A DNA stretch of 64,000 nucleotides from Rheinheimera sp. UJ63 (lineage in GTDB: Bacteria; Pseudomonadota; Gammaproteobacteria; Enterobacterales; Alteromonadaceae). The notes below the pieces were generated by a model. That model was not told the origin of the DNA. It searched no databases and saw nothing but the letters and a program-made list of their open reading frames with translations. Numbering within the stretch: the first letter of the stretch is position 1; the number at the start of each line of letters is the position of its first letter. This document shows positions 1 to 7,685 of the stretch, one piece after another. The stretch is taken from NCBI RefSeq assembly GCF_021568285.1, contig NZ_JAKGTQ010000004.1, positions 62,001 through 126,000 of the forward strand, given 5' to 3'. The position numbers and the translations under genes are program-made.

Positions 1-78
1 GGCGTATTAATGGTATTGCAGAGAAAGGCCTTTTGCGTCATGGTATTGCTTCTGATAACCATTGGCGGTTTAACATGA
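1..78 (+). CDS. C-terminal end of an unidentified protein (partial)
   Basis: Frame 1 is open from the window edge to a TGA at 76-78 and reads as a strongly hydrophobic tail (…FCVMVLLLITIGGLT), like a last membrane helix. The stop overlaps the ATG of the next gene as ATGA, the usual layout of coupled operon genes. Only 25 codons are visible, so no family can be named. Frame 3, which is the frame of the downstream racemase, is also open to the edge, so the upstream gene could be a chance reading. Confidence 0.35.
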   Translation, partial: GVLMVLQRKAFCVMVLLLITIGGLT

Positions 79-779
79 AAACGATTGGTTTAATTGGCGG
101 AATGAGTTGGGAGTCAACCATACCGTATTATCGGTTGCTTAATCAGGGGGTTAAGCAACAGCTGGGTGGGCTGCATTCGGCTAAATGTATTTTATACAGT
201 GTCGATTTTCAGCAGATTGAACGTTTACAACATGCGGGTGATTGGCAAGGCGCCGGTGAGGTGTTAGCTGAAGCGGCTGTAGCACTGGCTGCAGCAGGTG
301 CAGAGGTTATTGTGCTCTGTACCAATACCATGCATAAAGTTGCTGCTCAAATTGAAGCTGCAGTGGCTATCCCGCTATTACATATTGCCGATGCCACCGC
401 AACCGCCTTGAGGCAAGCTCATTGTAGCCGTGTTGGTTTGCTGGGAACTAAATTCACCATGGAGCAGCCTTTTTATCGAGAGCGCTTAAGTGAAAAGTAC
501 GGTATCACAGTGCTGTTACCCACTGAAACTGAGCGGGATAGTTTGCATCAGATTATTTATCAAGAGCTCTGTCAGGGAATACTTAAACCGGAATCAAAGC
601 AGTTAGTGCGGCGGATGATGGCCGGTTTAGCCTTGCAAGGTGCTGAGGGAATTATCTTGGGTTGCACTGAAATAGGTTTATTAGTCAGCCAAGCCGATGC
701 CGCTGTACCGTTGTTTGATACCACGGTACTGCATGCACAAGCGGCTGTAGCATTCGCGTTAGCCGATACGGTGAGTTAA
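75..779 (+). CDS. Aspartate/glutamate racemase family protein
   Basis: Cofactor-independent amino-acid racemase of the Asp/Glu racemase superfamily, probably cytosolic, interconverting L- and D-aspartate or glutamate; substrate inferred from family only. The protein (234 residues) begins with the typical MKTIGLIGGMSWEST. The two catalytic cysteines of the family are visible in VLCTNTMH in the first half and ILGCTEIGLL near the end, at the expected spacing. The start is set at 75 because the family N-terminus begins there; an in-frame codon at 33 would add a non-conserved extension. The start overlaps the stop of the preceding frame. It resembles the YgeA group more than MurI (glutamate racemase for peptidoglycan), which is less likely here. 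Confidence 0.85.
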   Translation: MKTIGLIGGMSWESTIPYYRLLNQGVKQQLGGLHSAKCILYSVDFQQIERLQHAGDWQGAGEVLAEAAVALAAAGAEVIVLCTNTMHKVAAQIEAAVAIPLLHIADATATALRQAHCSRVGLLGTKFTMEQPFYRERLSEKYGITVLLPTETERDSLHQIIYQELCQGILKPESKQLVRRMMAGLALQGAEGIILGCTEIGLLVSQADAAVPLFDTTVLHAQAAVAFALADTVS

Positions 780-818: not shown

Positions 819-1526
819 ATGAATTACCTGTTTGCCATAATTTTGCTTTGCTTTAGCGCGCTATTACAGGCTAAAAAGTGCGTGATTTTATTACACGGCT
901 TAGCGCGTAGTGCTGATGCCATGCAGGTGTTAGAAAAACGCTTACAGCAGGCCGGTTATGTGGTCAGTAATGTCGATTACCCCTCAACGCAGTACCCTAT
1001 CGAGCAATTAGCTGCATTGGCCATTGGGCAGGGGCTTCGTTATTGCCAGCAGCAATCCGCACAGCCAGTGCATTTTGTTACGCATTCGCTAGGTGGCATC
1101 CTTGTGAGATACTATTTAACGCAGCAGCCTATTGCTCATCTTGGCCGCGTGGTGATGCTTGGTCCGCCTAATCAAGGCAGTGAGGTCGTGGATAATTTAA
1201 AAGATGTGCCCGGGTTTGAATTATTGAATGGCCCAGCAGGTCAGCAGCTTGGTACGGATGAAGCGAGTATGCCGAAACGCTTAGGTCCGGTCGATTTTGA
1301 GTTAGGCGTGATTGCCGGTACGCAAAGTATCAATTTGTTGCTTTCGACAATGTTGCCCAACCCGGATGATGGCAAAGTGTCACTGGAGTCAACTAAAGTT
1401 AAGGGGATGACAGATTTTATTGCCTTACCGACTACGCATCCGTTTATGATGAAAAACGATGCGGTGATCGCGCAAACGTTGTATTTTTTGCAACACGGCG
1501 AGTTTGAACTGCGTCAGTCAGAATGA
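819..1526 (+). CDS. Exported alpha/beta hydrolase (lipase/esterase-like)
   Basis: Serine hydrolase of 235 residues. The first 18 residues are a signal peptide (…ILLCFSALLQA). The oxyanion segment VILLHGLARS and the nucleophile elbow THSLGG (G/T-x-S-x-G type) match triacylglycerol lipase/PGAP1-like hydrolases, and LGPPNQGSEVVD is typical of this lipase branch. The late His in PTTHPFMM probably completes the triad. The substrate is unknown; an exported ester hydrolase acting on lipids is the best guess. AGAGA at about 809-814 lies a suitable distance before the ATG. No clear terminator follows; a weak hairpin is at 1522-1543, overlapping the stop. Confidence 0.82.
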   Translation: MNYLFAIILLCFSALLQAKKCVILLHGLARSADAMQVLEKRLQQAGYVVSNVDYPSTQYPIEQLAALAIGQGLRYCQQQSAQPVHFVTHSLGGILVRYYLTQQPIAHLGRVVMLGPPNQGSEVVDNLKDVPGFELLNGPAGQQLGTDEASMPKRLGPVDFELGVIAGTQSINLLLSTMLPNPDDGKVSLESTKVKGMTDFIALPTTHPFMMKNDAVIAQTLYFLQHGEFELRQSE

Positions 1527-1553: not shown

Positions 1554-1766
1554 TTAACGTTTTCGCTGCTGGCGAGGTACTTTCTTTTGTTTCGCCAAAA
1601 GAAAGTACCCAAAGAAAATGCGACCCCACTTCCGCTCGAAAGCCCGGCTGATCATGCGTTGTCCAAGGCGAAAACGTAACTCGTGCGGCGCTAGCGTCGC
1701 CGCACTCAAACACCCGTTTTCTTAAAACCTTGGTCAACGATGATCAGTCGGCTCGCTACAAAGGGG
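1554..1766. repeat. Structured repeat A, copy 1
   Basis: First of three near-complete copies of an approximately 210-bp non-coding element. It runs from TTAACGTTTTCGC to AAGGGG, the same borders as the other copies. It contains a perfect 14-bp hairpin (1576-1589 with 1596-1609, loop TTTCGC) and a long compound hairpin: outer arms 1641-1668 and 1728-1753, middle stem GAAAACG/CGTTTTC (1670-1676 with 1715-1721) and apical stem GTGCGGCG/CGCCGCAC (1683-1690 with 1698-1705). No coding sequence fits. Compare copy 3, where the stems are kept with different bases. Confidence 0.9.
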
Positions 1767-1816
1767 GAATGAATATCCAAAGCGAAGATCTAGGTTCGGA
1801 GTAAAGCGAGTTAATA

Positions 1817-1922
1817 GCGAAGTAAACTTTGGCTGGAGACGTCTTTTTCAGGGATGAAAAAGAGGAGCGTACAGGGAGGTATTTACCGCGTGCTCCAGCC
1901 GAAGCTTTACGCAGCGTTTAAC
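1817..1922. repeat. Structured repeat B, copy 1
   Basis: About 105 bp, nearly identical to copies at 2241 and 2619. An outer stem GGCTGGAG (1831-1838) pairs with CTCCAGCC (1893-1900), and an inner perfect hairpin CTTTTTCA-GGGA-TGAAAAAG occupies 1843-1862. It runs directly into repeat A copy 2. Confidence 0.88.
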
Positions 1923-2128
1923 GTTTTCGCCGTTGGCGAGATACTTTCTTTTGCGTCGCCAAAAGAAAGTATCCAAAGAAAATGCGACCCCACTTCCGCT
2001 CGAAAGCCCGACTGCTCATGCGTTGTCCAAGGCGAAAACGTAACTCGCGCTATGCTTCGTCGCCGCACTCAAACACCCGTTTTCTTAAAACCTTGGTCAA
2101 CGATGATCAGTCGGCTCGCTCTAAGGGG
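1918..2128. repeat. Structured repeat A, copy 2
   Basis: Second copy of element A. The first hairpin is 1940-1953 with 1960-1973. Relative to copy 1, one base pair of this stem has changed on both sides (G-C to A-T), so pairing is kept. The long hairpin arms are kept from about 2003 to 2116, but its apical stem is weaker than in copy 1. Confidence 0.9.
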
Positions 2129-2240
2129 CGCTCATATTCTAAGCGGTATTCGCTTAGTTGAGCAGTTTGTATCAATTGCAACAGTGAGATTATCAGCATC
2201 ATTTTTGCTGTAGTGGCAAATCAGGTTGAACGAGTTGACA

Positions 2241-2345
2241 GCGAAGTAAACGTTGGCTGGAGACGTCTTTTTCAGGGATGAAAAAGAGGAGCGTACAGGG
2301 AGGTATTTACCGCGTGCTCCAGCCAAAGCTTTACGCAGCGTTTAA
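2241..2345. repeat. Structured repeat B, copy 2
   Basis: Almost identical to the copy at 1817 over its whole length, with the GGCTGGAG/CTCCAGCC outer stem intact. The spacer separating it from A copy 2 (2129-2240) is unlike the other spacers. Confidence 0.88.
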
Positions 2346-2554
2346 CGTTTTCGCCGAGGGCGAGGTACTTTCTTTTGTTTCGCCAAAAGAAAGTACCCAA
2401 AGAAAATGCGACCCCACGTTGCCGCGAGAGCCCGGCTCAACCTAACCCGACCAAGGCGACGAGGTAACTCGTTCGGCACTACCGTGCCTCGCTCAAACAC
2501 CCCTCGTCTTAAAACCTTGGCCGCGCTAGGTTGCCCGGCTTGCAACGTAAGGGG
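2342..2554. repeat. Structured repeat A, copy 3 (diverged, stems conserved)
   Basis: Third copy of A. The first hairpin (2364-2377 with 2384-2397) matches copy 1. The long hairpin has a largely different sequence but the same architecture: outer arms 2429-2456 and 2515-2540, middle stem GACGAGG/CCTCGTC (2458-2464 with 2502-2508), apical stem GGCAC/GTGCC (2475-2479 with 2484-2488). The middle stem differs from copy 1 at three positions, each with the matching change on the other arm. Confidence 0.9.
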
Positions 2555-2618
2555 ATTAACAGCGAAAAGCGGTTGCCCATTTTTGCATTCGCTGAGATAA
2601 ATGTTGGTCGAGTTAATA

Positions 2619-2722
2619 GCGAAGTACATGTTGGCTTAAGACGTCCTTTTCAGGGATGAAAAAGAGGAGCGTACAGGGAGGTATTTACCGCGTGCTCCAG
2701 CCGAAGCTTTACGGAGCGTTTA
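2619..2722. repeat. Structured repeat B, copy 3
   Basis: Matches the two other B copies, but the left outer arm has changed to GGCTTAAG and no longer pairs fully with CTCCAGCC. The inner hairpin is also shortened. This copy looks like the decaying end of the array. Confidence 0.85.
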
Positions 2723-2776
2723 ACCTTTTAGCCGCGGTCGAGAGGCTTTCTTTTTTTTCGATAAAAAAATATCTCA
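2719..2776. repeat. Decayed remnant of repeat A
   Basis: After B copy 3 the sequence starts like A (TTTAACCTTTTAGCCG, then CTTTCTTTTTTTTCG), but the first hairpin is degraded and the long hairpin is missing. This marks the right end of the array. Confidence 0.6.
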
Positions 2777-6646: not shown

Positions 6647-6767
6647 CTGATAGCACGTGTAGTGAAACATGGTGCTATATTATCAGACTTGCCTGCGCTC
6701 GCCCATACACTATGCCTTGATGGCTAAATCCGCTACTATTGGCACACCTGAGATCGTTAAGCTTGCT

Positions 6768-7685
6768 ATGAGCCAAACAATACATGCTGCCTTGACAGCC
6801 GATACGCAGCAGCGTATTCAACAATTTTTGGATCAACTTTATTTAGAGCAAGATGCCAGCCCGCACACGTTAAGTGCTTACGGCTCGGATCTGCGGCATT
6901 TTGCGCTGTTTTGTCAGCAGCAAAATATCAAACTGCTCAGTGTTAGCGGTGATGATGTGAATGCGTATTTAGCCACGCGCTACGATCACGGGATCAGCCC
7001 GCGTTCTGCCTCTCGGGTGCTAAGTAGTTTAAGGCGTTTTTATCGTTACTGGCAGCAGTTGGCGTTGATAAGTACGAATCCGCTGGAGCATCTATTAAAT
7101 CCAAAAATTGGCAGTAGCTTACCGAAAACCCTATCAGAAGCCGATGTTGATGCTTTGCTAGGTGCACCGGATTTAAGCGAGCTGATCCAATTTCGTGATA
7201 AAGCCATGTTAGAGTTATTATATGCCACCGGCTTACGCGTGACCGAGTTGGTTAGCTTAACCATGCAGCAACTGTCTGTGCAACAAGGTGTGGTGCGGGT
7301 GCTGGGTAAAGGTCGTAAGGAACGCTTAGTGCCTATGGGGGAAGAAGCACAGCATTGGCTAAGTCGTTATTTACGCGAAGCACGGCCACAGCTGTTAGGG
7401 GGTGCGCAAGATGTGCTGTTTCCGAGTAATCGACAACAAATGATGACCCGACAGACCTTCTGGCACCGTATCAAATTTTATGCAACAGTGGCGGGCATTA
7501 AGGCAACCTTGTCACCTCATACTTTACGACATGCGTTTGCCACGCATTTACTGAACCATGGGGCCGACTTAAGGGTCGTACAGATGTTATTGGGCCACAG
7601 TGATCTGTCGACAACACAAATTTACACGCATGTTGCGCAAGTGCGCTTGCAGCAACTGCATCAACAACATCATCCGCGGGGTTAG
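6768..7685 (+). CDS. xerD: Site-specific tyrosine recombinase XerD
   Basis: Partner of XerC in resolving chromosome dimers at dif, activated by FtsK. The product is 305 residues. The N-terminal SAM-like domain contains YLEQDASPHTLSAYGSDLRHF. The catalytic domain has the R in ATGLRVTELV, the K in GKGRKERLVPMG, HTLRHAFATHLL (H-x-x-R), LLGHSDLSTTQIYTHV (H and the nucleophile Y). The start at 6768 gives MSQTIHAAL…, near the usual length of 298; an in-frame extension to 6669 is not conserved. It is the first gene of the xerD-dsbC-recJ block. Confidence 0.94.
   Translation: MSQTIHAALTADTQQRIQQFLDQLYLEQDASPHTLSAYGSDLRHFALFCQQQNIKLLSVSGDDVNAYLATRYDHGISPRSASRVLSSLRRFYRYWQQLALISTNPLEHLLNPKIGSSLPKTLSEADVDALLGAPDLSELIQFRDKAMLELLYATGLRVTELVSLTMQQLSVQQGVVRVLGKGRKERLVPMGEEAQHWLSRYLREARPQLLGGAQDVLFPSNRQQMMTRQTFWHRIKFYATVAGIKATLSPHTLRHAFATHLLNHGADLRVVQMLLGHSDLSTTQIYTHVAQVRLQQLHQQHHPRG

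Follow-up and report, generated by a model that had tools for sequence, protein, structure and literature searches.

The closest described systems to the repeat family considered here include the REP, BIME and REPIN repeats, which are moved by RAYT (Y1) transposases, and the cassette ends of integrons, the attC sites, which fold as single strands and carry a motif of RYYYAAC...GTTRRRY ends with paired inner boxes. The family, termed A, lies in a 64,000-nt stretch of the genome of Rheinheimera sp. UJ63 (the window, meaning the whole stretch analysed; positions refer to it unless a contig is named). A resembles REP, BIME and REPIN repeats in its mosaic, hairpin-forming intergenic modules and its inverted pairs, whereas its modules are about 200 nt long and adopt a multi-helix fold. 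With integron cassettes it shares single-strand folded ends, single cargo genes and accessory-gene slots, but the ends of the betaproteobacterial units are inverted rather than direct, and A did not match the strict attC pattern used here, which also missed spacers that look like attC by eye.

A further likeness is to the MITE of JS666 (Mattes et al. 2008, cited in PMC10969869). Like that element as it is reported, A is short, non-coding, multicopy and intergenic, with inverted ends and genes between copies, and the A family is itself present in JS666 contigs (L146, L166, L184); unlike it, A has end modules that are long, comprise several helices, covary and fold strand-specifically, forms tandem arrays with a second module, B, and shows no target-site duplication in the units seen. 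A is best read as a variant within the MITE/BIME kind. Literature searches by sequence strings and topics, partial in coverage, returned no description of the A motif, and an earlier one may exist. At gathering score, Rfam gave no match in the whole 64-kb window. When a 3.9-kb piece was searched with matches admitted up to E 1, weak minus-strand hits to Ysr224 (RF02770; 18.6-23.8 bits) appeared for all three B copies of the window and for neither of the two upstream B copies; Ysr224 is a Yersinia sRNA whose gathering score of 70 is far above these matches, and B folds better on the plus strand.

Organisation and distribution of the repeats

A and B frequently occur together in the UJ63 genome as A-spacer-B units, which stand head to tail, as in the window (Table 1). 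Adjacent units share the junction TTAACGTTTT, at which the end of B meets the start of the next A; the left edge of A, TTAACGTTTTCGCC, is sharp in most UJ63 copies, and their flanks differ. A further short, AGCTTCGGGGGCAGATACCAAGACCC-like module directly precedes A at many UJ63 loci (e.g., L072, L080, L081). A second A-B array of the same orientation lies just upstream of the window (C16:60946-61879), so that the racemase and hydrolase-like genes (33-1526) stand between two same-orientation arrays. A XerD-type tyrosine recombinase at 6669-7685 (370 bits, cut-off 330), 4 kb from the window array, is read as housekeeping.

Table 1. Features of the A-B array and its left-hand context in the window
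Feature	Position	Strand	Remarks
Amino-acid racemase gene	33-779	+	context outside the repeat
Hydrolase-like gene	819-1526	+	context outside the repeat; family matches weak
A copy 1 (A1)	1554-1765	-	212 nt; minus is the strand with the conserved fold
Hairpin 1 (hp1) of A1	1576-1609	-	14 perfect pairs; outer end of the module
Long stem of A1	1648-1747	-	read from sequence; pair counts in the text come from alignments
P2 arms, A1 long stem	1648-1661/1735-1747		
P3 arms, A1 long stem	1663-1668/1728-1733		
P4 arms, A1 long stem	1670-1676/1715-1721		
P5 arms (apical stem), A1 long stem	1683-1690/1698-1705		
Conserved internal loop, A1	1678-1683/1705-1712		AACTCG / CTCAAACA
B copy 1	1804-1924	+	
A copy 2	1918-2128	-	
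B copy 2	2226-2348	+	
A copy 3	2342-2552	-	other stem alleles: GACGAGG/CCTCGTC, CAACCTA/TAGGTTG
B copy 3	2605-2726	+	
A copy 4	2720-2769	-	truncated and degenerate; first 50 positions only

The UJ63 genome contains 46 BLAST matches to A and 32 to B, several partial, as well as 47 model matches to the core of A. Occurrence in the genus is patchy: the model finds A in 3 of 31 genomes (UJ63 included), and BLAST in 7 of 41. A pattern scan for hp1 returned at least 119 stretches; most carry a beta- or gammaproteobacterial label, a few only that of Proteobacteria, and the organism-labelled records supplied the 116 copies hereafter called named copies. Among the matches listed, record labels include Polaromonas, Acidovorax, Thiobacillus, Dechloromonas, Azonexus, Gallionella, Sideroxydans, Vogesella, Neisseriaceae and Methylomonas, among others. 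Phylum-wide searches of 398 genomes found A in two by model and in one by exact pattern; both understate its spread, because the model search scored only the best nine candidates per genome and the exact pattern missed a genome (G165) that the model found. Plasmid records rarely carry the repeat (one with the array as query, five with a Polaromonas element, none with B), and no phage record matched it. Another abundant short repeat of genus relatives (G003, G005, G017), matched at about positions 890-953 of the query used for the copy of A in the relative G024, adjoins that copy.

Fold, covariation and the folded strand

The fold of A is not a product of chance: A1 folds with z = -6.40 on the plus strand and -6.97 on the minus strand, and 0 of 200 shuffles did as well on either. 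From the three window copies alone, the earlier note had proposed a common architecture beneath differing sequence, and the base changes bear this out, since one fold is kept while stem bases change on both arms. In the middle stem, GAAAACG/CGTTTTC in copies 1 and 2 is replaced by GACGAGG/CCTCGTC in copy 3, so that three pairs differ on both arms; the first hairpin reads GATACTTTC/GAAAGTATC in copy 2 and GGTACTTTC/GAAAGTACC in copies 1 and 3; and the outer arms of copy 3, CAACCTA/TAGGTTG, still pair although the corresponding arms are otherwise CTGATCAT/ATGATCAG. Among the 41 UJ63 copies caught by the P4 pattern, 24 carry GAAAACG and 12 GACGAGG. As the P4 change within this genome is thus essentially one of two alleles, independent changes come mainly from the 19 alignment rows of other origin. 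Nor is any reading frame maintained: within 156 nt, stops interrupt every one of the six frames in 16 to 39 of 42 copies, and the best frame is open in 26. Together with the covariation and the strand asymmetry of mismatches described below, this agrees with the proposal that a fold, and not a protein, is under selection.

Covariation was first apparent in an RNAalifold analysis of 47 copies (45 from UJ63, two from relatives), with double changes that keep pairing at 14 of 32 pairs. A larger alignment comprises 67 rows, 64 of them distinct (48 from UJ63, 11 from relatives and 8 from named loci; 86 loci searched), the regions supplied being 16 of 20 from UJ63, 7 of 8 from relatives and 63 of 119 named loci. 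The model misses most betaproteobacterial copies, which is why named loci contribute just 8 rows and relatives 11, and the rows were fitted to a structure drawn from UJ63 copies. This alignment covaries above both shuffled and slid controls, which do not fully correct for relatedness. Pairing cells amount to 87.8%, against 73.8% after shuffling; 174 cells are changed on both sides, against 54.4; and the covariation score is 0.373, against 0.130 for shuffles (0 of 500 as high) and 0.052-0.095 for slid controls. Double changes occur at 17 of 21 pairs (13.2 shuffled; 1 of 500), while further pair types, a weak measure, are barely above chance (37 against 32.6; 28 of 500). A therefore contains base pairs that covary beyond chance, as looked for in a structured RNA, and these data support the view that its structure rather than its sequence is conserved. 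The apical stem P5 is the weak part, with 74.1% of cells pairing. An arm-swap test covered 31 copies, UJ63 and foreign, that differ in their left arms and were drawn from 110 with the core loop; the mean pairing score was 12.3 for a copy's own arms and 6.7 for arms swapped between copies; only 16 of the 31 exceed the 95th percentile of swapped scores, which marks the fixed arm window as crude. The AACTCG/CTC[AG]3CA loop is present in 77 of 116 named copies and absent from 39, including copies from Methylococcaceae, whose apical part differs by eye. In the variants at two Methylomonas loci (L148, L178), the apical domain is of another type and TGTCGC...GCGACA repeats lie on the outside.

The strand on which the fold is kept was assessed with 155 distinct copies (36 from UJ63, three from relatives and the 116 named), counting Watson-Crick pairs only. 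Isolated stem mismatches show an A.C:G.T ratio of 106:20 on the plus strand and 22:109 on the minus strand, compared with 147:107 in 400 background windows, a slight bias of the method. Counted as distinct contexts, there are 53 A.C and 15 G.T mismatches, and A.C exceeds G.T at 58 loci and falls below it at 7. With wobble allowed, the minus strand folds better in 139 of the 155 copies (36/36 from UJ63, 3/3 from relatives, 100/116 named), the mean minus-plus difference being -17.4, -13.6 and -8.0 kcal/mol, respectively. As random windows differ between strands by typically 9.6 kcal/mol in either direction, the evidence from named copies is the consistent sign rather than the size of the difference. 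The mismatch asymmetry and the folding preference together indicate that selection acts on the minus strand of A, and a mirror-image asymmetry of this kind is not expected from a double-stranded palindrome or from arm-templated repair, which supports a single-strand fold. The earlier note's suggestion of selection on a single-stranded nucleic-acid fold is thereby strengthened, and its account of kept structure and changing sequence stands, but it read the plus strand, whereas the selected fold is that of the minus strand. Module B folds better on the plus strand in 20 of 20 UJ63 copies tested, so that in A-spacer-B both better-folding strands read outward.

The fold of A may be selected as RNA or as single-stranded DNA, between which the strand test does not distinguish. 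Wobble pairs make up 10.3% of predicted pairs on the minus strand and 3.0% on the plus strand in 36 UJ63 copies (7.9% and 5.9% in the 116 named copies), which leans towards RNA.

Inverted pairs, insertion sites and explanations

Under a strict definition, an inverted partner hairpin lies within 900 nt to the right of 24 of 105 named copies and to the left of 0 of 100, and an inverted core lies within 6 kb to the right of 63 of 116, 58 of them at 301-589 nt (a unit is counted twice where both halves match). The usual betaproteobacterial unit consists of two inverted A modules with hp1 outward, the outer hairpins being spaced about 380-570 nt apart in 30 of 37 units measured. All eight UJ63 regions with A in both orientations begin with a plus copy and end with a minus copy, and one of them (L080) alternates inside and has some partial copies; in G165, eight of the nine matches listed form four inverted pairs with similar outer ends. 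The 37 beta- and gammaproteobacterial inverted-pair units have imperfect terminal inverted repeats, with 57-86% identity over the first 28 nt outside hp1 and falling thereafter, which end at 8 nt or less in 11 units; the window array, being direct, has no such termini.

A 352-nt block is 95% identical in the relatives G023 and G024, with unrelated flanks. No clean empty site was found for the G024 copy, six relatives matching its left flank only. A is short, non-coding and multicopy, as MITEs are, and by eye no transposase recurs nearby, the neighbour-protein clusters found in at least three loci comprising only general families and no recognisable transposase or recombinase; PADLOC gave no match for six ORFs. 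A crude test for target-site duplication in 30 of the 37 units scored 0 in 27 and a chance-like 3 in two (L209 was uninformative), and since no duplication was seen, MITE membership in full is not claimed for A. Gene orientations around A show no preference by crude gene calls (21, 19, 16 and 16 among the 72 of 116 copies with both neighbours). These data do not support a role as a regulatory element tied to one place, A being a repeat, often paired, with no preferred gene orientation.

We consider it somewhat better than an even bet that A, like B, forms the structured ends of a non-autonomous, non-coding MITE/BIME-like mobile unit moved in trans. In favour of this are the covariation, the strand asymmetry, the patchy spread, the block with unrelated flanks, the inverted partners, the enclosed ORFs and occupied slots described below, the even gene orientations and the sharp left edge of A. 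Against it weigh the results on neighbour proteins, target-site duplication and empty sites, the rarity on plasmids and absence from phage records, the direct window array, the 39 named copies lacking the loop, and the modest mean strand difference of named copies. The conserved or better-folding strand of each end module reads outward, and a transposase or recombinase acting in trans would recognise this fold, either as single-stranded DNA or as RNA; the enzyme would move the unit and occasionally also the content between two ends, and tandem arrays could grow as units recombine or insert repeatedly at the junction they share. A competing account, which we regard as unlikely, takes A for a structured small RNA (or a domain of one) present in many copies; it would be expressed from the minus strand and act either in trans or within read-through transcription products, with mobility incidental. 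The excess of wobble pairs on that strand and the conserved internal-loop bases fit it, but no match at gathering score was found in Rfam, and RNA is leaned against by the even gene orientations and by the lack of a sigma-70-like promoter in 1500-2900 (0 found, 0.8 expected by chance, a weak test).

Less probable again is that the repeats are ordinary selfish palindromes of the MITE/BIME type, whose covariation arises with no selected fold because template switching makes one arm a copy of its partner: modular mosaics and the imperfect terminal inverted repeats of the betaproteobacterial units would suit such copying, whereas neither the opposed mismatch ratios of the two strands nor conserved unpaired loops are expected from it. 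That A and B belong to the integron system of UJ63, as attC-like sites or cassette ends, seems very improbable, despite a full-length integron integrase at C11:604176-605123 (loci L315 and L323; 470.9 bits, cut-off 265) and, next to A arrays in L073 and L079, spacers that look attC-like by eye. The attC-type pattern matched neither module (the strict scan also missed those spacers), the 20 kb around the integrase, which lie almost wholly to one side of it, contain no match to A and only a weak one to B, and the betaproteobacterial copies are inverted pairs. A protein-coding repeat can practically be dismissed, being already contradicted by stops in every frame, even though ORFs of 95-119 aa cross the window array. 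Separately, the integrase itself has no evident repeat array in 18 kb on one side.

Enclosed genes and a possible cassette system

Five paired betaproteobacterial units enclose one long unrelated ORF between their halves: a DUF3800 protein in L216, a secreted-looking product with no Pfam match in L244, a repeat protein (by eye) in L254, and products with no Pfam or NCBIfam match in L307 and L308. Seven of the 37 measured units exceed 600 nt, including L216, L244, L254 and L178 (1448 nt). In UJ63, a Phd/ParE pair, a DUF4160/DUF2442 pair, a ribonuclease with barstar and a PF00905 protein lie between inverted arrays; some of these genes are in arrays with attC-like spacers and may therefore have been brought by an integron. 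The racemase/hydrolase pair is not established as cargo, as the window array is direct and not inverted.

Two slots allow comparison with relatives. Between TamB and CmoM (named by eye), UJ63 carries three A copies, two B copies and a set of small genes, some of RelB/RelE type, within about 4.2 kb, whereas the five relatives read have no array and their next gene follows within about 200 nt after CmoM (aligned to TamB for one relative, L343). Between guaA and the LD-carboxypeptidase gene, UJ63 has an array with accessory genes; G023, the only relative with a matchable 1.5-kb flank, has other genes and no array there, its single model match to A lying elsewhere.

A more ambitious reading, which we hold only tentatively and think rather unlikely, is that the family constitutes a widespread mobile cassette system of beta- and gammaproteobacteria, parallel to integrons and carrying no enzyme of its own, which captures and moves single accessory genes and whose ends are recognised by a conserved RNA or single-stranded DNA fold and not by sequence. 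Intergenic repeats of bacteria tend to be written off as selfish palindromes. The A family spans two proteobacterial classes, the shape of one strand is kept while the sequence turns over, and accessory genes are sometimes enclosed. It makes testable whether an enzyme reads structure to move genes, and its copies supply material for a new RNA or DNA family model.

Two minor observations concern gene content. The 1448-nt Methylomonas unit L178 may hold another cargo gene, and a 309-aa ubiquitin-domain protein (PF00240, E 8.3e-19) is encoded between A arrays of a bacterial genome at L074:7870-8799.
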